A program made the position numbers and the translations under genes. From Beroe forskalii (Eukaryota > Ctenophora > Nuda > Beroida > Beroidae), in NCBI GenBank assembly GCA_011033025.1, contig WFMF01000070.1, forward strand, positions 434,001 through 498,000: a stretch of 64,000 nt of DNA. Direction: 5' to 3'. Of this stretch, positions 46,801-64,000 are shown in pieces (position 1 is the stretch's first letter; each line of letters begins with the position of its first letter). The notes beneath the pieces were generated by a model, which was given only the letters and a program-made list of their open reading frames with translations, made no database searches and was not told the origin of the DNA.

Positions 46801-49800
46801 CTATATGCAATCATGAAGTATATATGCAATCATGAACCAAATATCATATAAAACCACTGAACAATAAAACAACGATAAGTTAACAATGGTTTAACAGTTG
46901 ATAAAAGTTCCAACCATAAAATGACAAAGTTTCACTACTATAAAATATGTAACGGACGTGCATATCTAAATAACATGGACTAATATCAAATAATGTTCTG
47001 AGACGTTGTAGAGTTAGTGTCCATACTTAACCGCAAAAGGAGTGCTGTGTTTGAAGCATAATGTGGTGAGGTCGACTTCAGATTAAATAGGTTTGTAATA
47101 AACCTTTAGTTTCGGATGAGACAAGAGCGAGCAGAATCTAAGTTAGTTTCCTTGTAGTGTGTTGTTAATCTCCTGTCATCCTACTTTAAGCCTATTGTTT
47201 AGTGTTTACGTTCATTTGCGGTTAACTCACTCTTAGTCTCTTAGAATTAATCCTCGACTGGGGCCTGGGTCAAAGCGACTTCCCCGGTCCTTCCTAGTCC
47301 AGTCAAAAGTGGCCGGGGCAAATACCTTGCCCGGCCAAAATTTTACCCCTGGCACAAAAAAAATCGTACATTTACCGGATTAAAGTCGGGAATTTTAATT
47401 TAGATTCGATTTCAGAAAAATGGGAAATGAAAAACAATTGAACACATTGTCGATAGGATTAATTTAATTAATTTTTGATATCTGGGGTCCTCCACGAGCG
47501 GAGATAAGCGCCTATAAATACCTAGATGATCGATTTTATTAAGAGTGGTCATGAAACATGAGTTAAGAAGATACTATTTCACACATATCTTTTCTTCTTA
47601 GGAACTTCCTAAATATTTTAGAAATCTTATTATAAACCCTTCCTAAGTCTGCGTTACACTCCATATTTTTGGGGTCTCCATATTTTTGGGGTCTTCCTAC
47701 CTCACTAAGTGCACTTAAATTTCTTCTTAACTTCAAAATATTTAGGTGCATCACTAAGAGGGTTTTTTCATTTTTGTAACCTATTACTAACCTATTACGA
47801 CCATCATTAAGCTAACACTATCAACACTAACCTATCACTATCAACATAAAGCTATCAATATCAACACTACCTATCATTAACCTCTAACTACAACAGGTCT
47901 CCAACAACGGGAGGCCTACGACCCGACACGAGCAAGTGCTCGAGCACTACGTTACAATACCAGTCATGCAGATCATCACCTCCTTCTTCTCTTCTCCCTT
48001 CTCAGACAGCTCCACCAGCCAGGTAACAGAGGTGTGTCACGAGTGCGAGAGAAATGGGAATCTTCCTGGAATTTCCGTCATATATTACGATAATCACAAG
48101 ATTTTCGAAACTTCTGATTTGACATTTCATCGTATCATTTAAAAGTTTTAAACTTGCTCCCTAACATGTACGTGAATGAACATATGACGCAGTATTACGC
48201 ACGTACATTAAATGGCGATCGTGTGGAAATTTCGGTTGGCGCGAGCTCAGAACTCATGCCATTTACGTAACGCTGTGGTCCACTGATCCCAGCGTCAGAT
48301 AAACTCCTAATCATACTTAAATGCTTCAAAGTCTCAACTCTCACTCTATCAATTCTCATCAGCCACATGAAATTCAAGTATTACTGTTGAAACCTTCTTA
48401 AAGAAGTTATATCAGTCGCTATTCACCTTACTAAATCCCAATACCCTCAGTCCCGACAACCAATGTTCATGAGACTGTTGAAAGGCGCATTCCAACTCAG
48501 TCGATGTGATTGGTTATCCGGGGAACAGAAATTCCACGTGGAGAATTGCATCAAAACCCTCTCAGAAATAGGTTTGTTGGGGAATTTTAACCAGATGGCA
48601 CAATAAGTGAGACGATTTCGGAGCGACCAATGAATCATGCGTATAGTAAAATCTGCAGTATGCAAGGCAAGACAGAGCCCATTTTCCTGTTCGAGTACAA
48701 TAAGGCAACATCACGAAATGGTCGTGATGGAGCTCAACGTTTTAATAGACCCTGCGATGGCCTAATGCCCCGTCCGAGAGAGAGAGAAAGAGAGTTGTTG
48801 AAGATGCGCGTTAAATATTTATGGTGGCTCAACTCAAGGGTAGTGTGCCTGTGTGACTCAAAGACCTGGTTCGCCAATATTTGTTTTATCAGAAATATTT
48901 ATTGTAGCAGCTACTTCGGATGATATTTTCTCAGTTTTAAGCACTATGCGCAGATTATGAGCTGATATTTGGAAGCTCTTCATGCCACACACTGGATCCA
49001 CCATTTTGTTGATGCTAGTTGCCACAGATAAACGGCTTTTGAGCATTTGTCATTTTGTCAGTTACCTGTGATCACTTATTCATGTAAAAGGGCAACCTTC
49101 GCAGCCAAATATTGTTGGATATGTCAGAGCATGGCTCCTAAGACCTGCACTCTCTTTACTCTCTTGAGGATAATCCGCAACGGTTCCGGACTGTTTCTCC
49201 AACATAGACTTATTAGCTAACCTACAAACATTTAGGCATTCTAACCAGTACTATAAAATAGTAGTTATTAAAATCAAATTAGCCCCTATTGATACGGCTC
49301 CGTATCACAGACAAACACACATCTCCTGCAGCTAACGAGCGTAAGATAGTGATCACAGCGGACCTGAACGCTCAGATGAGCTCTCTTCTGAGCCGCTCTC
49401 TGCTGGGTAACAGGATCGGTAACAAGTGGATGGACAGAGTGAGGAGTAGACGACCTTCTGGTTTAGGAGGCAGCAGAGACTACAGGACTATCATAGAGGG
49501 ACTACAGGTACAATACTTTACTACTGGGCTATAGAGAGACTACAGGTACAATACTTTACTACTGGACTATAGGGGGACTACCGGTTTGGACTATTATAGT
49601 AGGACTACAGGGTAAAGGACTATTATCGAAGGACTATAACAAGTAAAGGACTACCATATCAAGTAGAGGACTCCTATAGGAGTCCTACAGGCTAATATCC
49701 CTGTGTCCATTGACTCCCCTCCCCAGGATATCGTGTCTCTGTTCGAGGAGGAGATGCGGCCCCAAGTGGAGGCAGAGAAGAGTGTCCTGGTGGACGTGAT

Positions 49801-52800
49801 GCACCGACCTGACCGCCTCTTCCCGGAGGACAGCGAGAGTCGGGTGCAGTGTTCCGGAGGCGGCTTCGTCAGCAAACTCATCAACCACTGCGAGAAGATG
49901 CTGGAGAACATAGACGAGGACCTGATCATCAGGCTCCTCAACACCATCCGCTGCATGATGAAAACCAACCTCCAGTTCACCCCTGATGTAAGTGTCACCC
50001 AGTCTTACTAAGCAGGCGTCCTTTCCAAACTACACTTAGAAACCAGCTCCTTTGTTTTTTCCTATGGAGCCTGAAGGAATGACTGTATAATATGTGCTCA
50101 CCTTTGAATCCTATATTTAGACTAACATTAAAATTATCTGTGAGTGAAACTATAATCAACCCTATTTTGAATCCTGGTTAATTATTAAAACCAATGGATT
50201 AATTAATAATCAGGCTTACATTAATAAATCCCAGGCACTAGCGCTGAGAATGCGTCTGTTACGCCGTTACTATGGAGACAGTGTAGTAGAGAACTCTGGG
50301 ACGGGAATGGACGACCAAGGAAACGATGACGACGGTACGTGGCTTTATATTTTAAAGTCTTAGTGCTCGAGGTATAGTGAACCTGGTAGTTTGACGACGT
50401 TAAATCAAGCGTTCTATGGTCTAGGTACTTAAGAATTTTAGTGACCGGATTCTAGTACATACCATTAAAAGGCGCTAGAAGTAGCTTCATTACCAAATCT
50501 AAACAAATATCGTCAAACATGCTATTCTGTGGGTTGAGCAGTTGTAGTGCAGTCGTTATTTAGAATCTAGATACGTGACTTGTGTAGCCCTTAATGATAC
50601 CTTAAAGATCAAACTGCAGATAAGACCTGTTAAATGTCAGATTTACGATGTTACCAATGTTCAAATTCTGCACATTATTGTCTTAACAATGCGCTCATCC
50701 TGTCCGTAATTATGTCTATTTTCCAAGGATTTTTGTGAAGAGCAAGGCAAACGTGATGTCAACAAGACGTGTCTTGAGTTTCAAATAATCGTCTTTTAAT
50801 TACGCTCAAATAACCTAAATACAATACCCGTATCCATAATGAAGGCCATTTGAGCCTGAGCAGGCCCTGATCGTGCTAATGTCACTGCACCGGTTTTAAG
50901 ATATTATTATGAGTGTCTTCGGCCAATCATAATTCACTATGCGATCACAGTGATCATAATTCTGGGGTTGTGTTGAGACATGACCTGATCCTATATAGTG
51001 ATAAGTATGAACCTAAATCTTGGCTGTATAATCACATACGTCGCAATGACGTCGCAAATAGCAATGACCTGTTTATAACTCTAGCTGCTAGGGTGTCATG
51101 ATTGTAGTGGATCGTAATAAGAGCAAGTGTGCGACTATGCTAATGAATGGGTTGGTAGGTCACCACTTATTGCTTTGTCGGAATGTCAGGGGCGTGTGTT
51201 CTATAACTGTATTGACACATCTCTAAATCATCCATGAAATGCTACATACACTACAGATAAAGGAGAAGTACCCAATAATTTTCATGTTTGTTTCAATGAT
51301 TTCAAGAATTCTATGTCGGACTAATCAGTTAAAATGCTGATGAGTTAAATTGGGAGCACAGTCGATACTGCTTAGAAAAATAGAAAAAAAAGAGTTTTTG
51401 CGGAATTGAAAAACTATACGTTAATTAACCCATCGCAAAAATTCATGGAAAATAATCAATAGAACTGCAATTAAGTAATTGATGAGTAATTTATTTATTA
51501 TCTTTTGAATCAATGGTACAAATACAAATATACCATTGAACCACATCGTTTACATTAGTATTTGTACCAAAAGATAATAAATAAAATACTCGTCAATTGT
51601 AATCATGCGACTCTTATTCAACGACCCGATCCGTGAAATCAATTAAGTAATTAACTTAATATCATCTAATTGCAGCTGATAAGGAGGATGAAGAAGAGGA
51701 CTGGTGTACGAAGATAAAGCAAAGCAACACTGTCAGCGTGGCTAGAGACGACCTCACCCTCTTCCAGGTTCGTTATCCCAAATGGATACTAGGCGGACAA
51801 GAGGCTGGAAACATGCCTTTTGGAAGGCTAAAAGATAGAAATCAGCCAGGTCTATTGGAGCAGCGCGACACTTGCACACCAGGGTGCACCGGAGTGACTC
51901 AGATCATAGTCCTATCGCATGTAATACTAACTCGGGATCACTCACACGGAGCTGTGCGGAGAAAATCTCTTCATTAGTCATGGTGGTCATTGGTCAGTGA
52001 CCCAGTATTTCTCAAAACTTGAGTTTAATTAAGAGCCATCGGATCGTCGTGCGAGGTGTTTCACGTGGCTGCAAAATTCTCAGGATTCAGTCGTTGAAGG
52101 TGGAGCTAGGTGAAGAGGAGAAGTCTCAAAATGTAGTGACAATTTATAGCGCCTCTTCTTATAGCACAAGATGCTCATCGCTGTACAGCTCCTTTGAGAA
52201 TAAGATCGTAAGCAAAATATCTGAAGTGATAGCTAGTTGTTGCCAGCCTGAGGGAAGATGGTCATAATTTGAGAAAAATTTCGATGAATTAGGATCTTTC
52301 GAAGAAACCGACTTACGAACTTACAAAGACTAATAACAAACCATAATAAGAGAGTTGGCTCCTGAAAATAGCTACAGTATGATGACAATTGAACCAGTTA
52401 ATTACTGCTTCAATTAGTGACAATAGCTGTATTACCCATCCATTGTTCAGGCCGTCAAGAGACACATTTCTGTAGGAATGAAATACCAAATTGGTAATAC
52501 TGCAATCTTATTTCAATGGTTTCGCTACCATTTCACCGGTGAATGCAAAGTACTGAAGTAAATCTCCTTCTTTTTGCCATCGGTTTGGAGCCCTGGAACG
52601 ATGGACTGCAGACCAGGCTCGTCACAGGAAGATGGGTAACCCTTCACAGCGTGAGAATTACCCGATCACTCGGATAACAGCTAACGAGTAGAATTAATCT
52701 GATCTCCACTTCTTACTCAGGTGTAATGCTTGCTGGACGAGTAGAATTAATCTGATCACCCCTTCTCACTCAGGTGCAATGCCTGCTGGACGAGTAGAAT

Positions 52801-58800: not shown

Positions 58801-61800
58801 AGATCCCTTGGACACAGAGGAAGACATGGGAGATGACGTGGCTACCCCCCATGAAGTAGGACACAACATCTACATCCTGGCTTATCAGTTGAGCATTGAG
58901 TAGGACACAACATCTACATCCTGGTTTATCAGGTGAGAATTGAGTAGGACATAACATCTACATCCTGGCTTATCAGGTGAGCATTAAGTAGGACACAACA
59001 TCTACATCCTGGCTTATCAGGTGAGAATTGAGTAGGACACAACATCTACATCCTGGCTTATCAGGTGAGCATTGAGTAGGACACAACATCTACATCCTGG
59101 CTTATCAGGTGAGTATTGAGTTGGACATAACATCTACATCCTGGCTTATCAGGTGAGCATTGAGTAGGACACAACATCTACATCCTAGCTTATCAGGTGA
59201 GCATTGAGTAGGACACAACATCTACATCCTGGCTTATCAGGTGAGAATTGAGTTGGACACAACATCTACATCCTGGCTCATCAGGTGAGCATTGAGTAGG
59301 ACACAACATCTACATCCTGGCTTATCAGGTGAGTATTGAGTTGGACATAACATCTACATCCTGGCTTATCAGGTGACCATTGATCGGGAGGGTTTTTAGA
59401 CAAGAAACAGTTGGAAAGGTAGCACTGACTCCGTGAGATAGGTTCCTCATCCCGACACAAGAAATACACACAACATAAGGATCTACTGATCTAATCTCCC
59501 GGACAACCCAAGCGTAGCATTGAAATTAAGTAATTTGCAAAGCACTGATCGTCGGGTGAAGGCTGGTTGATGATAGAGATCACTGTCCACCTACCTTCTT
59601 TGTGTCTACTACAGCCCAGCGTTTTACATAATCTCTAGTCCACTGCAGTTCAATGTTCTGTACACTCAGCCAATTAATCTAAACAAATGAGGGCAATAAT
59701 CTTAATGGTTGGGTTGATCACTTTGCGTGATTATATTCTATGATTGATTTTACTGTTACTCTATTGCGCTTACAAAATACTATGGTTAGCACGAAGAAAA
59801 CAAATAATATCATCAACAACTGAGGTGTGGTAGTCTAAATTCCAAATATCAACAGATTTTCTGAAGAAGAAGAAAAGTCATCAAGTTAAAAGAAATGATC
59901 TATAATTGAATAATTGAGCATTATCCAGCTCTTAAAATTCGATTTAAGGGATACGGGTGTCGTAAAGTTTACCTAGATGACTTGAAATGAAGGGTTGAAC
60001 TCTTTTGACAGTAATTTCGGTATTTGGAACACTTTCCAAGGTGAAAGCTAAATGAATAAATGATTCTTCCAACTGTTCCGTGTCCAATGAATTTAAGATA
60101 AGAAATGGATATGAAATAATTCGCTTCCGAGAATCACATTTACAAGGTATCGGGACTAAAGATAGGAGTAATGAAAGATAAGAAAATTCAGATGGTATCA
60201 CTACAAGATACGGTGTACAAGTGAGCCTCCTCCATATATATCATACGATGGAGTATCCTCAGCTGATATAGTGCTGCGGGTGCTCTCTGTTTCACTAATG
60301 TGTAATTCTGTAATGAGAGCGCGCCACTAACTCCCACCAGCCCGCACCCCGGAGTGAAGTGCCTTTTACAGGGCTCATGCTCTGTCTCTTAACTACTCAG
60401 ACATCTTCATATCATGGACAACAGACTGCTATCACAGACATCATACAGACACCAAACACACATCATGCGGACAAAAGTAGTTTGCATATTTAAATGATTA
60501 CATGGCAGGGTATCTTTAGGCATTACATGGCTAAATTCATAATGAACATCAGTAGTCGGTATCGGAGTGTTAGCAAGCGCGACCTCAGTTAACCACATTA
60601 CTTGATCTATGATAGACTGCATGCGACAAGATATGTTTGATTCAACGTAATTATCGATAGTAATAACTCAAACGAAAGGAAACCACTCTATAACCCCATC
60701 CCTCAAATGCCCATCCCCTAGTTGTCAGAGTTCAACAAGGAACTGGCCCACCTACTGTGTCGGGGCTTTGCTAACGAAGCCAACAGACTCTCAGACCCCG
60801 CCCTGGATTACTACTCCAAGAGAACCGCGCAGATCGAGGTTTGGTATTCAGTTTATTAAGGGGACAGGGGTTTTTTTTTAATCTGATTTCCTAATGGTTG
60901 TCATGGTGATTGGTATGTAGTTACCTGGATACCATGATGGTAACTGTGGTAACTGTATCGTTACCATGGTAACATCCCCACGTTACCATGTGAGGTGGTT
61001 ACCACGGTAACACCCCATGTTCCCAGGTGGTGCGGTATGACAGGACGTTGGAACGTATCGTCTTCCAAGTGCCGCCCATCTGTAACTACCTGACCAAGAC
61101 CAGCAAACTGAAAGTTCTGTACACGGCCGAGAGGGACGAACAAGGCAGCAAAGTCACGGACTTCTTCGCACGCACTGACGACCTCTTCAACGAGATGATC
61201 TGGCAGAAGAAACTGAGGGGTGAGTTAACGAGATGATATTATGGCTGAAGAAACTGAGGTCTGAGGGGTGAGTTATCGAGATGATCTGGCTGAAGAAACT
61301 GAGGGGTGAGTTAAAAAACAGGTTACCAGTAAGATAAACAGGCATGAATACTATAGAGTGTTAAACAAACTGCAGCTAGAACTGCCATGTAATTGAAATT
61401 CAAGTACCTACTGCAGCTTAAACAGCTGAATACCAAGTTAGTCAGGCCTGGGTAAGTCGCGTCCCCTGGTACCAAATCATCAGGCGATACCAAATCATCA
61501 GGCGATGATATCAAGTATCCAGTTTGCATCTCAAATTTGAGATATTGCATAACTCTTAAGCCTGAGATTTTATCAAATATTAATAATTTTATCCTAATCG
61601 TATTTGTATTAACTGTTAATTGGAAATGGCACATTTATGATAACTCGATTATCATCATTAAGTTTTTGATAAGATCTTGTAACACCTTAATCGCATTTAT
61701 TTAACCGGCCTTTTTAAACCATCCCTATGCCTATGGACAAAAATGCAATCATTTTAGGACCATTTCAACCGGCCCCTTGGACAAACATTTTCCAATTCAT

Positions 61801-64000
61801 TGCCAATCGAAGAATTTTTGCTTTGAAATATCCATTTTTATATTTAAAGAGACCCAAATCCCTTAAATTGGGTCCTTATCTGTGTTATTCACTGATTTTA
61901 GATTTGAAATACTTTTTCCCGAAGTCGGCAGTATAAATTCTTGTATCCAAAGTGTTACCTGATGGTAGAACGATGGTCACAGTACGCATAAAGTTCACAG
62001 TATTTACATAAACCATTGGCACTCTTTGGACTCCACATTGACATGAGGATTAAGTAAGAAAAAAAATTAAAGTATTAAACTTTGACCTCGGCAAATTCAA
62101 TTACAAAAACAGCACAGTTTCAACATTTCTCCGCAAAGAGTCGACTTCCTATTGCATCTAAACATTGTTTCAGATAACCCGCTACTGTACGCCATCAGTC
62201 GTAACATGCCCTTCTGGGCTAACATAGCCTTCCTCCTGGCTGTCATATGCAACTCTCTGGTGGCTCTCTTCTACCCTTTCCCAGCAGTCGAAACGGAGTG
62301 GATTGGGAGTTCAGGGTTGCTAAAACTGGAATTTGAACCCCTCCAAACCCCTTTGGCCTCATAACTTCACCTGAAGTGAACCTCGTGTACTTTTTCTCTG
62401 TACTTTTCCTTGCCAGTAACCTTCTTTAGTTCCTTGTCTCACCCCGTATTATGACCCCTTTCTCTACCCACTTGTCTTACCCGGCATTCCAACCCCTCTA
62501 CACCCACTCACCCTGCATTCTAACCCCTCTCCCCACCCACTTACCAGGCATTCTAACCCCCTCTCCCAACCCATTTGTCTTACCCACATTCTAACTCATC
62601 TCCCCACCCACTCACCCCACATTCTAACTCCCTCTTCCCAACCACTCACCCCACATTCTAGCCCCCTCTCCCCACCCACTTACCAGGCATTCTAACCCCC
62701 TCTCCCCACCCACTCACCCTGCATTCTAACCCCTCTCCCCACCCACTTACCAGGCATTCTAACCCCCTCTCCCAACCCATTTGTCTTACCCACATTCTAA
62801 CTCATCTCCCCACCCACTCACCCCACATTCTAACTCCCTCTCCCCAACCACTTACGCGCATTCTAACCCCTCTCCCCACCCACTCACCCCACATTCTAAC
62901 TCCCTCTCCCCACTCACTTACCCACATTCCAACCCCTCTTCCCAACCACTCACCCCTCATTCTAACCCCCTCTCCAACCACTAACCCCACATTCTAACCC
63001 CTCTTCCCAACTACTCACCCCACATTCTAACCCCCTCCCCCAACCCACTCACCCCACATTCTAACCCCTCTCCCCACCCACTCACCCCACATTCTAACCC
63101 CTCTCCCCACCCACTCACCCCACATTCTAACCCCTCTCCCCACCCACTCACCCCACATTCTAACCCTCTCCTCAACCACTCACCCCACATTCTAAACCCC
63201 TCCACCCACTTACCCACATTCTAACCCCTCTCCACCCCTCAGCGGAGATCCCCACGTCCATATCAGTGCTCGTGTGGCTGACCCTGGTGGTCCTGGCTAG
63301 TTTATGCTACCTGGCACCTAACTCCAAGCTCATGTCACTTCTAGTGGTAGTGGGTATAGCCCGGCTCAAGCTCTCAGCCGGCATGAACTTTACCCTTACC
63401 TTCCTCGGCTTCTGTCAGGTAAGACAGGGAGGCTTTCTTCGATGGTGTTACTTGAAAATTCTGTGTAAAGCTACGAGTCCTGGCCTACTTGTCGCGTGCT
63501 TCTATACGTTGCGCGTCTTGGAGCCTACCCGGATCTAATCTATACTTCAGTGATAACAACTTCAGATGCGGATGTCCATCCGTTAAGATAAACAGGATAT
63601 CTTCATTCTACATAACCCCATATACCATGCAGGTGGTAGGGAAAGCGATGTACCTGATCAGCTACCTCGGTAACCGAGGTTTTAAGCGAGAGAATCTCAA
63701 GCGGGACGGGGAGTTGCTGTACCACAACGTGTACATGGTACTGTGCATCCTCGGCCTCGTGGTCCACAACTTCTTCTACAGCATACTCATGAGTTTTAGT
63801 GTCTTAGTGGCATCTCCTCTACAACATACTCGTGAATTTTAGTGTCTTAGTGGCATCTCTTCTACAGCATACTCGTGAGTTTTATAGCTTTCTTTACGTG
63901 TCATCCCTAGAAGCTGTTTCGATGCATTTGATTCAATCAGTATAGATATTGAGTATTCGCTGAACTAACTCCCACTTCTCCAGATGCTGGACATTATAAT
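1764..64000 (+). CDS. ITPR: Inositol 1,4,5-trisphosphate receptor gene (partial; 27 exons in window)
   Basis: Tetrameric ER Ca2+-release channel opened by IP3. The window carries the part from the middle of the regulatory solenoid to about TM4; the ligand-binding N-terminus and the C-terminus lie outside. Exons were joined by GT/AG borders and matching codon phase, and each translation was compared with remembered vertebrate ITPR. Diagnostic stretches include KKCQDIVM and CTEGKN (second RIH domain), [34 protein letters not shown] (RIH-associated domain), [19 protein letters not shown] and [11 protein letters not shown]. They also include the pre-channel ERDEQGSK and RNMPFW at the start of TM1. 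Ryanodine receptors lack these. Phase is continuous across every junction except for doubt about three donors (exons 21, 24, 26). Introns range from about 110 bp to 31 kb. Two protein-coding genes and one peptide gene lie inside its introns. Confidence 0.95.
2033..2190 (+). CDS. ITPR: ITPR exon 2 of window
   Basis: Acceptor CACCCAG and donor GTAAGT; 158 bp completes the split codon and ends in phase 0. It encodes the variable acidic linker ([14 protein letters not shown]...) and then ERNFQQIIQ, equivalent to the vertebrate NYRVVKEIL helix that opens the second RIH domain. The linker is poorly conserved, as expected for this segment. Confidence 0.88.
2191..3973. other. ITPR intron sequence, nothing recognised
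   Basis: Left part of the 7.3-kb intron between exons 2 and 3. AT-rich, with small G/C homopolymer tracts (about 3567). No gene or clear repeat seen. Confidence 0.5.
3974..4259. repeat. Hairpin MITE-like element, full copy
   Basis: Long inverted repeat with arms of about 120 bases (outer ends CAATTTTTCCCAAAACC and its complement; inner part with GGTCCGCGGCGG). A related partial copy lies at 5984-6163, so it is a mobile family. No transposase ORF; non-autonomous. Confidence 0.8.
4829..4977. repeat. Direct repeat, copy 1
   Basis: About 148 bases nearly identical to 5568-5715 (shared CTCTGTGCCTTAGTAAAATG and GATTCGCGGCGCTTGAGC). The two copies bracket a 590-base segment with the ACCGGC repeat, as expected from a local duplication or an element with short direct termini. 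Confidence 0.8.
5116..5560. repeat. Dispersed 'ACCGGC' repeat family, copy 1
   Basis: Bounded by TTTAACCGGC-type motifs at both ends and containing ATGGACAAAAATCGAATC. Related copies lie at 57257-57545 (inverted) and 61697-61920. The minus-strand ORF in this copy and the plus-strand ORF in the inverted copy both begin MKLLLL and contain DIRPG, so they are the same repeat sequence, not independent genes. Confidence 0.6.
5568..5715. repeat. Direct repeat, copy 2
   Basis: Second copy of the 148-base repeat at 4829-4977, same orientation. Confidence 0.8.
5984..6163. repeat. Hairpin MITE-like element, truncated copy
   Basis: Shares CCCAAAACCAAAAAGGATTT, GGTCCGCGGC, GAAAGAAC and GTGCCGTTGCGGCA with the full copy at 3974-4259 but lacks the right arm. 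Confidence 0.75.
6330..7045. repeat. GC-rich block and G/C-tract duplication
   Basis: 6330-6450 holds a GC-rich near-duplicate (CCAATGCTCGCCCTCGG type). 6725-6790 and 6980-7035 are diverged copies of a segment with GGGCCAAGGCCCCCC and GGGGGCCTTTTGAAAACTA. No coding sense. Confidence 0.5.
7477..7674 (+). CDS. Small secreted arginine-rich prepropeptide (novel)
   Basis: A 65-codon single ORF starting at a good context (CAAGATGA) inside the 7.3-kb ITPR intron, same strand. Residues 1-20 ([20 protein letters not shown]) form a textbook signal peptide. Residues 21-44 are an acidic, collagen-like triplet spacer ([15 protein letters not shown]) ending in the dibasic site RVKR. The remaining 20 residues, with core [16 protein letters not shown], are ten arginines in two near-identical half repeats. 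A signal, an anionic pro-part, a furin-type KR site and a strongly cationic mature part is the layout of cationic antimicrobial precursors. A neuropeptide-like or DNA-binding role cannot be excluded. No family recognised; no canonical AATAAA seen in the following 370 bases. Confidence 0.6.
   Translation: MKKTLCILLLFVLIQLNTLADGTDGADGTDGADGAMDVPATRVKRSASPRYRRRRTFGRYRRRRM
7675..9489. other. Intron sequence downstream of the peptide ORF
   Basis: AT-rich; may include the 3' UTR of the peptide gene. Contains one strong hairpin at about 9066-9122 (TTTAAGGCAT and ATGCCTTAAA arms). No other gene seen. Confidence 0.45.
9490..9633 (+). CDS. ITPR: ITPR exon 3 of window
   Basis: Acceptor TTTTCCAG; 48 codons in phase 0; donor GTGGGG is weak, but an in-frame TGA follows three codons later, so a donor is needed here. 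[10 protein letters not shown], then [17 protein letters not shown], match the vertebrate RLLRNMGAHAVVLELL segment of the second RIH domain. Confidence 0.93.
9803..9923 (+). CDS. ITPR: ITPR exon 4 of window
   Basis: Acceptor GCACCTCAG, donor GTGGGT, 121 bp, leaves one base. [19 protein letters not shown] corresponds to the vertebrate MRLAHEFLQNFCAGNQQNQ segment, then [13 protein letters not shown] to LLHKHINLFLNPG. Confidence 0.95.
10809..11011 (+). CDS. ITPR: ITPR exon 5 of window
   Basis: Acceptor CCGTCCAG, donor GTAAGA, 203 bp that restores phase 0. [19 protein letters not shown] and [10 protein letters not shown] followed by KKCQDIVM are hallmark RIH-domain stretches of IP3 receptors. 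Confidence 0.96.
11210..11379 (+). CDS. ITPR: ITPR exon 6 of window
   Basis: Acceptor TGTCTGCAG, donor GTGAGT, 170 bp, leaves two bases. [19 protein letters not shown], then [17 protein letters not shown], closely match vertebrate ITPR (FYNDRASFQTLIQ; HLVELLAVCTEGKN). Confidence 0.97.
11540..11665. repeat. Short palindromic element, copy 1
   Basis: G-tract plus GATCATG, then TTTTTTGTAT...TTGGACAAAAAAATAC. Mirrored by an inverted copy at 13345-13460, so a mobile hairpin family. Confidence 0.6.
11666..13344. other. ITPR intron 6, no gene seen
   Basis: AT-rich intron sequence with scattered copies of a CTTCGGCC-type word (about 12570-13040) and a T homopolymer at about 13055. No coding evidence. 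Confidence 0.45.
13345..13460. repeat. Short palindromic element, copy 2 (inverted)
   Basis: Inverted relative to 11540-11665: ends in CATGATCCCCCCCCC; internal AATTGGACAAAAAATTGTTG. Confidence 0.6.
13575..13940. repeat. 20-bp CpG-rich minisatellite
   Basis: About 18 tandem units of GAACTGGAAGCGCGCGTAGG with small substitutions (GGGACTGG, GAACTAG) and one 6-base insertion. Directly tandem, no spacers, so not a CRISPR. Lies 330 bases before ITPR exon 7. Confidence 0.95.
14272..14404 (+). CDS. ITPR: ITPR exon 7 of window
   Basis: Acceptor CCACTCAG, donor GTAGGT, 133 bp, ends in phase 0. [36 protein letters not shown]: nearly identical in spacing to vertebrate ITPR. It is the last exon before a 31-kb intron that hosts antisense genes. 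Confidence 0.97.
15003..15175. repeat. Nested hairpin element (three hairpins within an outer inverted repeat)
   Basis: Three hairpins at 15035-15068, 15071-15108 and 15109-15144 each have 11-12-base perfect arms (AAATTATTGCAC, GTATTGTCGCAC, AAATTATTGCAC) closed by a CTCGG..GCCTC loop. Outer arms (AAGAGCATGGC and GCCATGCTCT; GCGCTAATA-like) enclose them. Confidence 0.8.
15810..15815 (-). terminator. Polyadenylation signal of the Kv gene
   Basis: AATAAA on the minus strand about 105 bases after the Kv stop codon. A second candidate lies at about 15725. Confidence 0.5.
15920..17144 (-). CDS. Shaker-type (Kv) voltage-gated K+ channel, main 3' exon
   Basis: Plasma-membrane K+ channel subunit. 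About 400 residues from one exon. T1 tetramerisation domain at about 22-105 ([21 protein letters not shown]), without the HX5C...CC zinc motif of Kv2-4, so Kv1-like. S1 about 157-173, S2 193-212, S3 222-240. S4 about 268-290 ([19 protein letters not shown]) has the full set of six basic positions. S5 about 304-327, pore with TTIGYGD (351-357), S6 366-391. S6 reads [11 protein letters not shown] where conducting Kv channels have PVP or PIP. No in-frame ATG precedes T1 and a TAA lies just upstream; the sequence CTATTTCAG at 17145-17153 is a good acceptor, so a 5' exon is missing. The first complete codon is N (after one carried base). Ends at TGA with an AATAAA about 105 bases beyond. Antisense inside ITPR intron 7. 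Confidence 0.92.
17190..17510. repeat. Degenerate 28-30-bp repeats upstream of the Kv acceptor
   Basis: About ten diverged units of TACTGGTGGGGCGTGTTGG type. On the minus strand they form C-rich intron sequence just upstream of the Kv exon acceptor at 17145. Confidence 0.8.
17511..19330. other. No gene recognised between the Kv and DD3-3 genes
   Basis: The missing 5' Kv exon should lie here or further right on the minus strand. A good minus-strand donor (CAG|GTAGGT) occurs at about 17544, but the frame with the correct phase has no start codon. Otherwise plain sequence. Confidence 0.4.
19335..19340 (-). terminator. Polyadenylation signal of the DD3-3 gene
   Basis: AATAAA on the minus strand about 205 bases after the stop codon; a plausible 3' end for the single-exon gene. 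Confidence 0.45.
19544..21898 (-). CDS. DD3-3 family secreted protein with inserted PAN/apple-like module
   Basis: An uninterrupted 784-codon ORF. The likelier start is the second ATG (21854-21856), since [17 protein letters not shown] is a signal peptide; mature protein begins [16 protein letters not shown]. This opening, [60 protein letters not shown] and the glycine-rich [19 protein letters not shown] are signatures of the Dictyostelium DD3-3 family, found in many marine invertebrates. Biochemical function is unknown; an extracellular or lumenal role is implied. Residues about 341-410 form a cysteine-rich block (C341, C364, C368, C374, C386, C410; [20 protein letters not shown]) typical of PAN/apple domains. 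It sits inside the family core between CEQEGG and [12 protein letters not shown]. Several N-glycosylation sites (e.g. NMS, NIT, NFT). No introns; antisense inside ITPR intron 7, 2.4 kb upstream of the Kv exon on the same strand. Confidence 0.93.
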   Translation of the reverse strand: MSIFILNNNPSSHSMRLLVALCCCLFGTPLADVYLGNPRGSNNRLNEQSATRTNGNRLFDSQNNARGGYNTGDKHSTAAGNDHTKQYAMQYYASGPTAGEASKLVIEWTNQHGCGNQGTTHKTNCNVVFQMMCQNQGEASDYPTGQGNGNTDVMERNFYMRDGTDTNTQNYNQGTEQEWTSDDFNVKNQAYNNRMDGNYKNVQTARGLHETVWWYDMCRYRSNNKGLYIADQNLGTGSLKYVGSERTRQNNNGNRRGYECPEERDHYPYWAPTHQSDMMDKYQTTPWIDIAYLTGNMSDCDRVSRGTENRVPKFRCVMPEQSSRTYGRSIDKESCEQEGGCIIDGLDYAGADLYSRIVESFEACMDKCREEEKCKSVAFSKGGKRCYLKNKENGNQKVVRWHVKSANKKCFDSDIGGKWVEFYGYLEILSTADTEAKCEAYKSKDERNKIAWMPLRSDKPEDKYCVVQAPEPICQKAPFTRVNHLGNSPDTDGEASRVEVEMPHFPSGVEKRCALRIRYNITTDEFDNYGTDSTYNHDQSKGIVSPVEQNPIIDVTGGDSKPLRLAMNTNQYGRTFQDRTHMFKVLPRVDGMQGKILHNLNVRGKRGNIVQTFPAVEYDFVPNKLTMSKQELLHIQWTGSNTHNNGNPGGDGQTGDAGEGTTGTDRHNFLQMLKEDLHYPMPYEQTTLWDSVESVSHPDTSAMDLAIGYATSGYYCGYSDNGVCEGSHYVTSNKEAMEQQLNNAPASYFGHVLKFKNGGKFLYICTRNNNFTNRSQKGVLTVTE
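21899..23367. other. Upstream flank of the DD3-3 gene, nothing recognised
   Basis: Presumably contains the DD3-3 promoter and 5' UTR, but no convincing TATA or other element could be singled out. Confidence 0.4.
23368..24891. repeat. 1.5-kb tandem duplication, copy 1
   Basis: Begins with a 142-base hairpin (ACCACCAAAACCGTTGGACG and complement as 38-base arms), then a 500-base segment (GTATGTAGTTTGAACCCATG), the 15-bp array at 24031-24240 and an AT-rich part starting ATAATCCGATGAAAA. All but the 15-bp array recur in the same order in copy 2. Confidence 0.85.
24031..24240. repeat. 15-bp minisatellite
   Basis: About 14 units of GTTATTCGGACCCCC with small variants; present only in copy 1 of the 1.5-kb duplication, so it arose or expanded after it. 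Confidence 0.9.
24892..26413. repeat. 1.5-kb tandem duplication, copy 2
   Basis: Same order of hairpin, middle segment and ATAATCCGATGAAAA part as copy 1, diverged by substitutions and small indels. Where copy 1 has the 15-bp array this copy has about 220 unrelated bases (25560-25778). Confidence 0.85.
26425..26612. repeat. 98-bp tandem duplication with internal palindrome
   Basis: Two units starting CACCCTGTGACACTCAAAT; each has CCCTGGCCAG and a later CTGGCCAGGG able to pair. Confidence 0.85.
26620..27397. other. Intron sequence, nothing recognised
   Basis: Unique-looking AT-rich sequence without coding evidence. Confidence 0.4.
27398..27625. repeat. 36-bp minisatellite
   Basis: About six units of CGAACTACTGGTCGAATTTA TTAAGCATTGCTGTGT. 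The period is a multiple of three, which creates chance ORFs on both strands ([12 protein letters not shown] repeats). Confidence 0.9.
27640..30236. other. Intron sequence with (GT)n microsatellites
   Basis: GT repeats at 28306-28326 and about 28735-28771. No gene recognised. Confidence 0.5.
30237..30632. repeat. 19-bp minisatellite with higher-order structure
   Basis: About 20 units of GTACCTACACGAATTCAAG (each with GGTACC and GAATTC at the junctions). The variant CGAACTCAAGGTACCGACAT occurs at 30361 and 30494, exactly 133 bases (7 units) apart, showing a 7-unit block duplication. Confidence 0.95.
30633..37595. other. Intron sequence, no gene seen
   Basis: Seven kilobases of AT-rich sequence. 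Only a two-copy duplication at about 31012-31078 (TTAGGATCATTGTGGGTTTA) stands out. Short ORFs have no protein-like character. Confidence 0.45.
37600..37860. repeat. Degenerate GACACCAGTTCACCC repeats
   Basis: Irregularly spaced diverged copies of GACACCAGTTCACC-like words; an old decayed minisatellite. Confidence 0.6.
37861..43650. other. Intron sequence, no gene seen
   Basis: Contains a 50-bp two-copy duplication at 40983-41082 (AATCAGAAAACACGAC) and a C tract at about 38132. The stretch TCTTGGCTGTATAATCACAT at about 40911 recurs at about 51018, so it is part of a dispersed repeat. Confidence 0.45.
43655..43725 (+). repeat. tRNA-derived SINE-like fragment
   Basis: Box A-like TAATTGAGCGG is followed about 35 bases later by box B-like GGTTCGAGTCT, the internal promoter layout of tRNA-derived SINEs. 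Cloverleaf pairing is poor, so not a functional tRNA. Followed by two copies of GCGGTGCTAAGCTATTAACC. Confidence 0.4.
44409..44714 (-). CDS. Unidentified 101-codon ORF, possible exon or gene remnant
   Basis: The reading frame has protein-like composition ([47 protein letters not shown] at the end) with balanced hydrophobic and charged residues, unlike surrounding AT-rich chance ORFs. The frame stays open for about 13 more codons before the ATG ([10 protein letters not shown]) until a TGA, so the start is uncertain. No clear acceptor lies immediately upstream. I do not recognise the family. It could be a terminal exon of a third antisense gene in ITPR intron 7, a decayed retrocopy, or chance. 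Confidence 0.3.
   Translation of the reverse strand: MTQLHAILCAVDISSRTKEQLLQAIVSGHEIGVTSATPPLSCVVTGTGELFPCIYMCDGRPVFDSQSSVLSVKPLNIILDSVAKDFQFVNNAFDSVNFKMI
44750..44870. repeat. 18-bp minisatellite
   Basis: About seven units of CACCACTCCACCACGGCT. Period divisible by three, so long chance ORFs appear in several frames. Confidence 0.9.
45655..45729 (+). CDS. ITPR: ITPR exon 8 of window
   Basis: Acceptor CCTTTCAG, donor GTGAGT, 25 codons in phase 0. [19 protein letters not shown] is almost identical to vertebrate [19 protein letters not shown], which proves that the gene resumes after the 31-kb intron in the same phase it was left. Confidence 0.97.
45730..47769. other. ITPR intron 8, no gene seen
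   Basis: AT-rich. A short CTTGTCACTTGTCACTTGTC run follows the exon 8 donor. Confidence 0.5.
47770..47896 (+). repeat. CTAAC-rich branch-point-like array before ITPR exon 9
   Basis: The last 125 bases of intron 8 are built of irregular CTATCAACACTAACCTATCA-like words with many CTAAC or CTATCA cores, ending in CAACAG. CTAAC matches the consensus U2 branch point. Confidence 0.6.
47897..48022 (+). CDS. ITPR: ITPR exon 9 of window
   Basis: Acceptor CAACAG, donor GTAACA, 42 codons in phase 0. [20 protein letters not shown] and FSDSSTSQ match vertebrate [20 protein letters not shown] and FSDQST. The intron just before the acceptor is rich in CTAAC-like motifs (see separate entry). Confidence 0.94.
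48451..48571 (+). CDS. ITPR: ITPR exon 10 of window
   Basis: Acceptor ACCCTCAG, donor GTTTGT, 121 bp, leaves one base. [20 protein letters not shown], then [11 protein letters not shown], correspond to vertebrate [20 protein letters not shown] and VESCIRVLSDV. The donor is not optimal but gives the right phase into exon 11. Confidence 0.9.
49332..49507 (+). CDS. ITPR: ITPR exon 11 of window
   Basis: Acceptor TCCTGCAG chosen because G + CT restores Ala and gives [18 protein letters not shown], the counterpart of vertebrate SDVAKSRAIAIPVDLDSQ. Ends [12 protein letters not shown] (vertebrate SRDYRNIIERLQ) at donor GTACAA. An alternative acceptor 21 bp upstream (ATCACAG at about 49310) is possible but breaks the alignment. 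The exon end plus donor is tandemly repeated downstream. Confidence 0.92.
49500..49690 (+). repeat. Tandem 5' splice-site repeat at ITPR exon 11
   Basis: The 38-bp unit GACTACAG|GTACAATACTTT... (49500-49537, 49538-49575) duplicates the last 8 exon bases and the donor. The rest of the 219-bp intron is made of decaying GGACTACAGG and GGACTAT copies. Confidence 0.85.
49727..49987 (+). CDS. ITPR: ITPR exon 12 of window
   Basis: Acceptor TCCCCAG, donor GTAAGT, 87 codons in phase 0. [20 protein letters not shown], then [14 protein letters not shown] and [17 protein letters not shown], match vertebrate [34 protein letters not shown] and GGFICKLIKHTKQLLE. Confidence 0.97.
50235..50334 (+). CDS. ITPR: ITPR exon 13 of window
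   Basis: Acceptor AATCCCAG, donor GTACGT, 100 bp, leaves one base. [17 protein letters not shown] corresponds to vertebrate GEALRQVLVNRYYGNV, followed by a short variable acidic tail. Much shorter than the glycine-rich insert of vertebrate ITPR1. Confidence 0.88.
51488..51590. repeat. Hairpin in ITPR intron 13
   Basis: Arms with TTTATTATCTTTTG and GGTACAAATAC and their complements (GTATTTGTACC, CAAAAGATAATAAA). Confidence 0.7.
51676..51767 (+). CDS. ITPR: ITPR exon 14 of window
   Basis: Acceptor ATTGCAG, donor GTTCGT, 92 bp, restores phase 0. It encodes an acidic linker ([11 protein letters not shown]...) and [10 protein letters not shown], which sits where vertebrates have EMSLAEVQ. Low conservation, but phase and position fit. 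Confidence 0.82.
52685..53215 (+). repeat. 53-bp array of 3' splice sites at ITPR exon 15
   Basis: Nine full decoy units plus a leading partial one and the real boundary. Each unit holds a pyrimidine tract (CTCCCCTTCTCACTCAG) followed by the first 18 bases of exon 15 (GTGCAATGCTTGCTGGAC) and then GAGTAGAATTAATCTGAT. The true exon is the last unit. Most decoy acceptors are identical to the real one; unit 3 has CTGAG instead of CTCAG. Confidence 0.95.
53198..53335 (+). CDS. ITPR: ITPR exon 15 of window
   Basis: Acceptor CACTCAG, donor GTAATC, 46 codons in phase 0. [40 protein letters not shown] match vertebrate VQCHLDKEGASNLVIDLIM and [20 protein letters not shown]. The acceptor and the first 18 bases of this exon are also the core of the 53-bp tandem array directly upstream. 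Confidence 0.96.
53476..53640 (+). CDS. ITPR: ITPR exon 16 of window
   Basis: Acceptor ATTTCAG, donor GTTTGA (weak; next frame codon is TGA), 55 codons in phase 0. [30 protein letters not shown] match vertebrate [20 protein letters not shown] and RMKVAQQEIK. The last 26 bases plus the donor region are duplicated downstream. Confidence 0.9.
53615..53704 (+). repeat. 45-bp duplicated 5' splice site at ITPR exon 16
   Basis: Two units of ACAAAGCTAGAGTAGATGA...ATTCAG|GTTTGAAAT. The first is the exon end and donor; the second lies in the intron. Confidence 0.9.
54111..54224 (+). CDS. ITPR: ITPR exon 17 of window
   Basis: Acceptor CCCTTCAG, donor GTTAGC, 38 codons in phase 0. [20 protein letters not shown] corresponds to vertebrate [20 protein letters not shown]. 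Ends in an acidic linker. Confidence 0.87.
54361..54447 (+). CDS. ITPR: ITPR exon 18 of window
   Basis: Acceptor TGCCCCAG, donor GTAGTT, 29 codons in phase 0. [20 protein letters not shown] matches vertebrate [20 protein letters not shown], the start of the RIH-associated domain shared by ITPR and RyR. Confidence 0.97.
54555..54930. repeat. Diverged pyrimidine-rich duplication in ITPR intron 18
   Basis: Two units of about 170 bases sharing GCAGCATGCGTTTCCA or TCAGCATGCGTTTCCAG and CCATCTTCC, within CCCCTTTTTGCC-type sequence. Confidence 0.7.
55481..56774. mobile_element. Long foldback element (about 490-bp inverted arms)
   Basis: Arms at 55481-55981 and about 56290-56774 are near-perfect reverse complements (outer GTATGGTGGCTCAGGTGCGC; inner GGTCCCGGTAAAGTGTAGAA) around a 310-base AT-rich spacer. 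No transposase ORF, so a non-autonomous foldback or large MITE in ITPR intron 18. Confidence 0.9.
57257..57545. repeat. Dispersed 'ACCGGC' repeat family, copy 2 (inverted)
   Basis: Opposite orientation to 5116-5560; shares the signal-peptide-like ORF start MKLLLL, the DIRPG stretch and CCGGTTAAAA ends. Lies 125 bases upstream of an ITPR acceptor. Confidence 0.55.
57670..57852 (+). CDS. ITPR: ITPR exon 19 of window
   Basis: Acceptor TCGGCAG, donor GTACGG, 61 codons in phase 0. [20 protein letters not shown] and [13 protein letters not shown] match vertebrate [19 protein letters not shown] and LTEYCQGPCHENQ; this glycine-rich turn is diagnostic of ITPR. Confidence 0.98.
58121..58358 (+). CDS. 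ITPR: ITPR exon 20 of window
   Basis: Acceptor GTTTTCAG, donor GTAATT, 238 bp, leaves one base. [20 protein letters not shown], then [18 protein letters not shown], match vertebrate [19 protein letters not shown] and KNNASKLLLAIMESRHDS. Confidence 0.97.
58386..58490. repeat. Inverted repeat after the ITPR exon 20 donor
   Basis: Arms TTCAGTTAG...CATCTAGATGAA...TTGG and complement (CCAA...TTCATCTAGAT...CTAACTGAA) could fold the start of the intron into a stem 30 bases after the donor. Confidence 0.75.
58782..58888 (+). CDS. ITPR: ITPR exon 21 of window (non-GT first donor)
   Basis: Acceptor TACTTAG; 107 bp completes a Gly codon and ends in phase 0. An acidic stretch is followed by [11 protein letters not shown], matching vertebrate [11 protein letters not shown], and exon 22 continues with LSEFNKEL (vertebrate LARHNKEL), so the true junction is CAG|TTG. 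The base after the exon end is T (TTGAGC) instead of G, so the exon-proximal donor lacks GT. Eleven downstream copies of this boundary follow, ten with CAG|GTGAG and the last with GTGACC. Reading on from copy 1 meets an in-frame TAG within 16 bases. Confidence 0.9.
58857..59384 (+). repeat. 44-bp array of 5' splice sites at ITPR exon 21
   Basis: Twelve units of TAGGACACAACATCTACATC...TTATCAG|GTGAGCATTGAG. Unit 1 is the exon end itself (with TTGAGC), units 2-11 have CAGGTGAG, unit 12 has CAGGTGACC. Each unit thus repeats the last 32 exon bases plus the donor. Confidence 0.97.
60722..60838 (+). CDS. ITPR: ITPR exon 22 of window
   Basis: Acceptor CCCCTAG chosen over TTGTCAG seven bases later because it gives [12 protein letters not shown] in phase 0. 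[11 protein letters not shown] matches vertebrate EFYAKHTAQIE. Donor GTTTGG is weak; 39 codons. Confidence 0.93.
60945..61010. repeat. Cluster of GTTACC/GGTAAC palindromes before ITPR exon 23
   Basis: Contains the perfect palindrome GTTACCATGGTAAC (60960-60973) and related GGTTACCACGGTAAC, within the last 80 bases of intron 22. Confidence 0.7.
61027..61219 (+). CDS. ITPR: ITPR exon 23 of window
   Basis: Acceptor TTCCCAG, donor GTGAGT, 193 bp, leaves one base. [17 protein letters not shown], then [15 protein letters not shown] and [12 protein letters not shown], match vertebrate [32 protein letters not shown] and DLFNEMNWQKKL, the linker that couples the regulatory solenoid to the pore. The exon end plus donor is repeated three times. 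Confidence 0.97.
61189..61312 (+). repeat. Triplicated 5' splice site at ITPR exon 23
   Basis: Three copies of AACGAGATGATCTGG..GAAGAAACTGAGGG|GTGAGTT, at 61189, 61227 (with a 10-base insertion) and 61275. The first is the coding copy. Confidence 0.93.
61697..61920. repeat. Dispersed 'ACCGGC' repeat family, copy 3
   Basis: Same orientation as copy 1 (TTTAACCGGCC, ATGGACAAAAATGCAATC, CAACCGGCCCCTTGGACA), diverged in its right half. Confidence 0.55.
62174..62308 (+). CDS. ITPR: ITPR exon 24 of window (TM1; 3' end uncertain)
   Basis: Acceptor [28 protein letters not shown] and LVALFYPF match vertebrate QPVLYWCARNMSFWSSISF and LVAFFYPF, so this is TM1. The next exon needs one carried base, and the only GT giving that phase before the in-frame stop is GGGA|GTTCAG (exon end 62308), a weak donor. 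The stronger-looking GTCGAA at 62287 gives the wrong phase. Confidence 0.85.
62440..63242 (+). repeat. 33-bp branch-point/pyrimidine-tract array before ITPR exon 25
   Basis: About 22 units of CATTCTAACCCCTCTCCCCA CCCACTCACCC type filling the end of intron 24. About 20 keep CTAAC followed by a pyrimidine tract, without an AG until the real CCCCTCAG acceptor. Confidence 0.93.
63243..63418 (+). CDS. ITPR: ITPR exon 25 of window (TM2-TM3)
   Basis: Acceptor CCCCTCAG, donor GTAAGA, 176 bp, ends in phase 0. It encodes the hydrophobic run [17 protein letters not shown] and then [18 protein letters not shown], in the place of vertebrate TM2 and the start of TM3 (LRLIFSVGLQPTLFLLGAF). The intron upstream ends in a long pyrimidine-rich minisatellite. 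Confidence 0.92.
63633..63788 (+). CDS. ITPR: ITPR exon 26 of window (TM3-TM4; non-GT first donor)
   Basis: Acceptor CCATGCAG, 52 codons in phase 0. [24 protein letters not shown] and [11 protein letters not shown] match vertebrate IIFLMSFVGNCG, EFLYHLLYLVI and LFVHEFFYSLL. Exon 27 continues with MLDII (vertebrate LFDLV), so the junction is CTC|ATG. The bases after the exon end are ATGAGT instead of GTGAGT. Two further copies downstream carry GTGAAT and GTGAGT. Readthrough ends at an in-frame TAG inside copy 2. Confidence 0.88.
63773..63884 (+). repeat. 43-bp triplicated 5' splice site at ITPR exon 26
   Basis: Units begin CTTCTACAGCATACTC (63773), CCTCTACAACATACTC (63816), CTTCTACAGCATACTC (63859), followed by ATGAGT, GTGAAT and GTGAGT in that order. 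The first is the exon end. Confidence 0.93.
63984..64000 (+). CDS. ITPR: ITPR exon 27 of window (truncated by window edge)
   Basis: Acceptor CTTCTCCAG followed by MLDII, the continuation of TM4 (vertebrate FFYSLLLFDLVY). Only 17 bases are visible. Confidence 0.75.

Follow-up and report, generated by a model that had tools for sequence, protein, structure and literature searches.

Tandem duplications across six exon-intron junctions of an inositol trisphosphate receptor gene in Beroe forskalii

The DNA analysed here (termed the window) is a 64,000-nt stretch of the Beroe forskalii genome (assembly GCA_011033025.1, contig WFMF01000070.1, positions 434,001–498,000 of the forward strand); all positions given below are those of the window. 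It holds the middle and late portion of an inositol trisphosphate receptor (ITPR) gene on the plus strand (positions 1764–64000, exons 1–27), both ends of which lie beyond the window. Exon boundaries were set by eye and then verified by translation. The rebuilt gene has 26 exons in full and the first part of exon 27, and these form a single open reading frame once joined. The protein encoded by the joined exons 8–26 matches IP3 receptors, the best match being ITPR1 (E-value = 7e-248). Exon numbering is the same in the original prediction on this DNA and in the present model. Intron lengths extend from 136 bp, the shortest, to 31 kb. Relatives of the exon 19–20 protein were sought in viral and prokaryote contigs, with 17 and 31 pattern matches respectively, none of which was confirmed, and an Rfam search at gathering thresholds gave no match.

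Two genes on the opposite strand are nested in the 31-kb intron 7 of ITPR. A Kv-type potassium channel gene is found at positions 15920–17548 (minus strand). Its intron (17145–17547) is largely made up of a 31-bp minisatellite (17166–17419) which ends about 20 bp before the acceptor; this is an acceptor-side array in a second gene. Also nested in intron 7 is a single-exon open reading frame of 784 aa with a PAN domain (19544–21898, minus strand), which by eye displays a signal-like stretch at its start. Intron 18 of ITPR contains a long near-perfect inverted repeat (55478–56777) with arms of 242, 122 and 99 nt that are 95%–99% complementary, and it resembles a folded-back mobile element.

Six ITPR junctions lie inside tandem duplications with units of 38–53 bp: the donors of exons 11, 16, 21, 23 and 26, and the acceptor of exon 15. 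The original prediction had named the same six boundaries and the same unit sizes, and both are confirmed by Tandem Repeats Finder (TRF) together with a separate junction scan. TRF detected five of them (donors 11, 21, 23, 26 and acceptor 15). The donor 16 duplication is not reported by TRF at a score of at least 36 and was detected by the separate scan, which took in the 26 donors and 26 of the 27 acceptors. The features had been placed in the last 20 kb of the gene; because the gene extends past the window, the statement can refer only to the final 16 kb of what is visible.

All of the arrays in ITPR described here are given on the plus strand, and a slash marks the boundary between exon and intron. 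The exon 11 donor array (49493–49585) has 2.4 units of 38 bp and covers 15 bp of exon and 78 bp of intron, and decayed related copies carry on into the 219-bp intron 11. The exon 15 acceptor array (52684–53215) consists of ten 53-bp units with the acceptor in the last copy, exon 15 starting at position 53198. At the exon 16 donor (53615–53694) there are two copies of a 45-bp unit, and the exon ends at 53640. The exon 21 donor array (58855–59383) is formed by 12 units of 44 bp, each with 34 bp of exon and 10 bp of intron sequence; copy 1 reads CAG/TTGAGC and copies 2–12 read CAG/GTGA. The exon 23 donor array (61189–61314) has donor-like copies at 61220, 61268 and 61306. The exon 26 donor array (63775–63884) has 2.6 units of 43 bp, with CTC/ATGAGT in copy 1, CTC/GTGAAT in copy 2 and CTC/GTGAGT in copy 3, and this donor is not preceded by AG. 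The straddling arrays cover 14–34 bp of exon.

The exon portion of the units aligns well with vertebrate ITPR1 in five of the six arrays and poorly in exon 16. One example of residues encoded by a unit and aligned in this way is VQCLLD of exon 15. As the units encode ITPR residues, each array was derived from the gene's own junction and not from an incoming satellite. A comparison of units between arrays showed 14 of the 15 pairs to be unrelated, with the pair from exons 11 and 15 weakly alike (p = 0.01). Introner-like insertions are similar sequence families present at several introns, and such a pattern is not displayed by these units. The possibility that one repeat family gave rise to all the arrays was likewise rejected, since the units are mostly unrelated. 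Within arrays the copies diverge at several sites, and the exon 21 array shows a block duplication in which copies 6–7 resemble copies 11–12, a pattern familiar from natural minisatellites. The six junctions were duplicated separately, each from the exon-intron DNA of ITPR itself; the proposal of repeated junction duplication is borne out both by the ITPR residues held in the units and by the differences between arrays.

Two more arrays do not straddle a junction. The array before exon 9 (intron 8, 47786–47876) has 20/40-bp units with CTAAC motifs and stops 21 bp short of the exon; the array before exon 25 (intron 24, 62485–63233) has C-rich 33-bp units and stops 10 bp short of it. From the array to the acceptor, there are four CTAAC motifs at exon 9 and 20 at exon 25. 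That both introns end in CTAAC arrays had been predicted correctly, except that the exon 9 array falls outside the interval in which it had been placed.

Weaker duplicates were also found. A decayed 38-bp duplication at the exon 23 acceptor (60964–61037) is a candidate for a seventh straddling case, and exon 23 may be duplicated at both ends. When copies of each junction were searched for in its own intron, nine of 52 tests reached the floor p value of 0.0033. These nine are the six straddling junctions, acceptor 25, acceptor 23 and donor 13. In intron 13, the stretch at 50737–50775 lies 400 bp downstream of the exon 13 donor and resembles that donor together with the exon end before it; it is possibly an old copy. 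Similarity to the donor unit persists over the 141 bp past the array in intron 11 (p = 0.0015) and is not shown by the control introns 10 and 12. Moving off the exon, successive copies match a 19-base core at 19, 18, 13, 12, 10, 10 and 10 positions, the last values being near the best-of-many chance level. On the evidence of intron 11, introns may grow from junction copies.

Several comparable systems are known in human genes. Human F7 intron 7 is described as having several near-identical 37-bp repeats at its donor, which lies within the first of them (PMC6627357). According to this review, an oriented scan normally picks only the most upstream repeated donor, and activation of a downstream cryptic donor leads to no functional protein. 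F7 is like ITPR in that the donor is within the first repeat copy; unlike ITPR, it concerns one junction only, and a splice mutation in the F7 first repeat causes disease. In intron 18 of human ABCA7, a 25-bp VNTR is reported to begin at the exon 18 donor GT, and a single retained unit adds 25 bp, which shifts the frame; the array varies between people and affects splicing (PMC5954066). Its position at a donor and the frame shift upon unit retention are shared with ITPR. However, the ABCA7 array starts at the GT, so its first unit has no exon bases. Human CBS is described with a 31-bp VNTR, c.1444_1467+7 (16–21 units), in addition to 844ins68 (PMC2630376). Like ITPR, the CBS VNTR spans a coding-to-intron boundary, to judge from its name, and more than one junction of the gene is affected, but there are two such junctions and not six, and the CBS insertion is a single duplication.

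Minisatellites with a mean unit of 30 bp have been reported at exon-intron boundaries in human segmental duplications, where such repeats account for 27 reported intron modifications (PMC2812944). These cases differ from ITPR in that they involve recently duplicated paralogues, that some of the repeats are kept in exons, and that novel introns are claimed. Direct repeats near splice sites are the subject of a further paper (PMC11782384). The ITPR arrays are of the F7, CBS and ABCA7 kind, with tandem units that hold the junction of an existing intron at six junctions. This kind of array is thus already known from human cases; what stands out here is the clustering of six within a single gene. 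A literature search, largely outside subscription journals, turned up no gene other than CBS, with its two junctions, that was reported to carry more than one straddling array.

The original prediction pointed to duplication of AGGT-containing DNA as a route to new introns. Intron gain via tandem duplication of AGGT-bearing DNA is treated in a review (PMC3443670), and a new intron in potato RdRp is attributed to tandem duplication (PMC4974935). These cases share with ITPR the tandem duplication of DNA that carries AGGT or crosses a junction, whereas a new intron was formed there and none is found in ITPR, nor any array that links two exons. None of the six introns concerned is bounded by two copies of a duplicated segment. 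In all six arrays the far intron end and the neighbouring exon are unlike the unit (p values of 0.16–0.99; for exon 26 the comparison covers the 17 bp of exon 27 inside the window). Formation of new introns from AGGT duplication was therefore rejected for these junctions.

The use of inner copies was considered with respect to both strength and product. In the exon 21 array, the donors of copies 2–11 score 10.2–12.1 and that of copy 12 scores 6.9, with a mean of 9.1 for the 20 donors without arrays. The decoys in this array are as strong as real donors, so the choice of site must be positional. Nine uses of inner copies were translated (from the arrays of exons 11, 15, 16, 21 and 26, including two of the 11 inner copies of exon 21 and two of the nine of exon 15, with the exon 23 array left out). 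Eight of these meet a stop codon and one shifts the frame. The receptor protein results only from the outermost copy among those examined. The 44- and 53-bp units run from GT to AG, and their stepwise removal as mini-introns is conceivable on paper; this was rejected because the shortest intron is 136 bp and such removal is not needed. The arrays represent natural experiments on splice-site choice, with up to twelve near-identical donors at exon 21 and ten acceptors at exon 15.

The reading that we favour, and hold to be on balance probable, is that the junctions were duplicated locally and independently, that the arrays were tolerated since the outermost copy is spliced, and that three donors without GT, described below, were overwritten by RNA reads. 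The process would begin with an exon-intron junction of the gene itself being duplicated locally in tandem, and ordinary minisatellite growth into the intron would follow. The spliceosome would choose whichever copy lies outermost (the first among donors, the last among acceptors), as suggested by the analogy with F7 and by the footprint of altered bases, and all other copies would be plain silent intron. The protein would be unharmed because the outermost copy is spliced, and the arrays would survive because they are tolerated. Consistent with this are the frame that stays open over 26 joins, the match to ITPR, the derivation of the units from junctions, and the human precedents F7, ABCA7 and CBS.

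The original prediction held that chance placement of the arrays on splice signals is unlikely. When whole arrays are slid freely along the window, the five of 40 that straddle a junction compare with an expectation of 3.25 (P = 0.22), and as a statement on the placement of whole arrays the claim therefore fails. A second null, which admits placements covering 34 bp of coding sequence or less, gives an expectation of 1.08 (P = 0.004; P = 0.0005 with a coding limit of 20 bp and 0.011 with 50 bp). The third null considers where the first duplication of a 30–60 bp unit could start harmlessly, either within an intron or over a junction. Here six of 17 arrays with a period of 30–60 bp straddle a junction against approximately 0.5 expected (P = 4.8e-6, post hoc), and in this form the claim is supported. 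The third null was judged the best fit to the biology, but it was picked after the first had shown no excess. All of the P values are post hoc and come from a single gene that was singled out for looking striking.

The count of six in 17 includes the exon 23 array, which was missed by the period scan (probably because of indels) and was added by hand; without it, five of 16 straddle (P = 6e-5). The scan itself gave 17 rows, and since those at 62599 and 63032 are one array, these represent 16 arrays before the addition of exon 23. Leaving out three interior arrays (13575, 30238 and 44760) that are multiples of 18–20 bp units gives six of 14. A whole-window version agrees with the third null (41 arrays, 0.73 straddling expected and six seen, P = 5e-5). 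Two base-shuffled copies of the window had no arrays of the 30–60 bp kind. With an assumed fivefold bias toward junctions P is still 0.015, and with a tenfold bias it is 0.16; a bias of about tenfold would thus be needed for six straddling arrays to be unremarkable.

Relative to interior intron DNA of equal unit size, junction DNA was duplicated more often. Tolerance alone does not explain this, as it predicts about 0.5 straddling arrays among 17 and there are six. The excess may reflect a mutational preference, weak selection or some benefit, or luck in one gene.

One possible source of the excess, which we regard as distinctly less probable than the reading of local duplication and tolerance, is an amplification targeted to junctions. 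Transcription, splicing complexes or the step in composition between exon and intron would make junctions prone to duplication in this lineage, and introns would grow from their ends. This agrees with the excess itself, with the narrow range of the straddling units (38–53 bp, versus 12 to 143 bp in the remaining arrays), with the continued resemblance to the donor unit in intron 11, and with the weak duplicates, taken to be older, at acceptor 23 and close to donor 13. However, the excess is a post hoc one from a single gene and disappears when whole arrays are slid, and introns 1–7, which have 14 splice sites, contain none of the eight arrays. In addition, no motif common to the junctions is known beyond AG/GT, and the exon 26 array lacks even the AG.

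A more far-reaching form of this proposal, rather unlikely in our judgement, is that in this lineage active splice-junction DNA undergoes duplication at a much higher rate than the rest of the intron DNA, perhaps in connection with transcription or splicing, with introns growing from their ends. With each duplication the outermost copy would become the functional splice site, and the old exon ends would be buried in the intron. The ITPR gene would then have been caught in mid-process at six or seven of 52 intron ends, and intron 11 would be largely built in this manner. If the excess is real, it offers a concrete and testable route for the lengthening of introns and for the harmless entry of exon fragments into them.

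At the best-joining boundaries, the donors of exons 21, 24 and 26 do not have GT and read CAG/TTGAGC, GAAA/CGGAGT and CTC/ATGAGT, respectively. The remaining 23 of the 26 donors are GT, and none of the 26 acceptors is without AG. The exons that follow open with TTG (exon 22), CGGAG (exon 25) and ATG (exon 27). The altered first intron bases (positions 58889, 62294–62295 and 63789) are the same as the first bases of the next exon, in the case of exon 24 at the boundary chosen for it. Copy 1 of the exon 21 array departs from the 12-copy consensus only at +1, and copy 1 of the exon 26 array departs from the 3-copy consensus only at +1. The altered donors went unmentioned in the original prediction and are a new anomaly.

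Exon 24 is the weak member of this trio. Its end (62288–62316) shows no good GT donor; the sequence is GAAA/CGGAGTGG, and exon 25 also starts with CGGAG. The boundary at 62293 was chosen to fit the overwriting rule given below, and an alternative at 62308 also keeps the frame. The only in-frame GT, at 62309, has a very poor score of –5.1. A reconstructed donor, GAAA/GTGAGT, scores 2.9, the range for 20 reference donors being 4.4–13.0.

The overwriting rule, which was framed after the altered donors had been seen, takes GT as given at the donor and asks whether the alignment of next-exon bases can be extended beyond a mismatch into the intron and still gain on balance. It fits three of the 26 donors, exactly the three without GT, and none of the 26 acceptors. 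The coincidence of three altered with three predicted donors has a chance of 1 in 2600, or 1 in 300 without exon 24. In a stricter test with shuffled next exons, 1.4% of trials still yielded a gain at all three altered donors, because donors of the GTGAG type are compatible with many partner sequences. The simplest cause, as far as the bases themselves indicate, would be that spliced RNA reads used in assembly correction overwrote the first intron bases. If so, copy 1 of the exon 21 and exon 26 arrays is the donor that was joined to exons 22 and 27. False non-canonical splice sites may in that case exist in other assemblies, and they can be searched for with the same simple rule.

It is improbable that the three donors are genuinely without GT, either because the species tolerates them, with arrays that guide U1, or because the gene copy is dying. 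All three do fall in the eight array-bearing introns (chance 0.02), and the donor consensus is kept after +2. On the other hand, every other donor is GT and the frame is fully open, and the replacing bases are those of the next exon in three of three cases (exon 24 by choice of boundary), which is not expected from random mutation. A dying gene copy was rejected because all 26 joins keep the frame open.

Selection of the arrays as decoys or buffers, which the original prediction had offered, appears more improbable still. Extra U1 and acceptor sites would here raise splicing efficiency or rescue mutations. The strong decoy donors of the exon 21 array are in accordance with this, as are the stretches before acceptors 9 and 25, which are rich in branch-like CTAAC motifs and have few AG (3 in 111 bp and 5 in 758 bp, with the true acceptor counted). 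These AG counts, however, are not below those expected from base composition (1.7 and 3.1, respectively), and the computed inner copies cannot rescue the protein because they bring in stops or a frameshift. AG/GT is not visibly protected either: 0 of 40 cells are changed in the exon 15 array against 1.5 expected, and 1 of 48 in the exon 21 array against 1.6 expected. Selection on decoys was rejected because neither of the two long arrays that straddle junctions shows conservation beyond expectation.

Least probable of all, and very unlikely, is an assembly artefact in which the arrays or their copy numbers are wrong through overlap-joining or RNA-informed correction at exon ends: overwritten donors do suggest that RNA reads touched the assembly and that errors may sit at junctions, but the copies differ at several sites and show block structure in the exon 21 array, correction with RNA reads swaps bases and leaves 10–12 diverged copies unexplained, and interior arrays of a similar kind are present elsewhere in the window.
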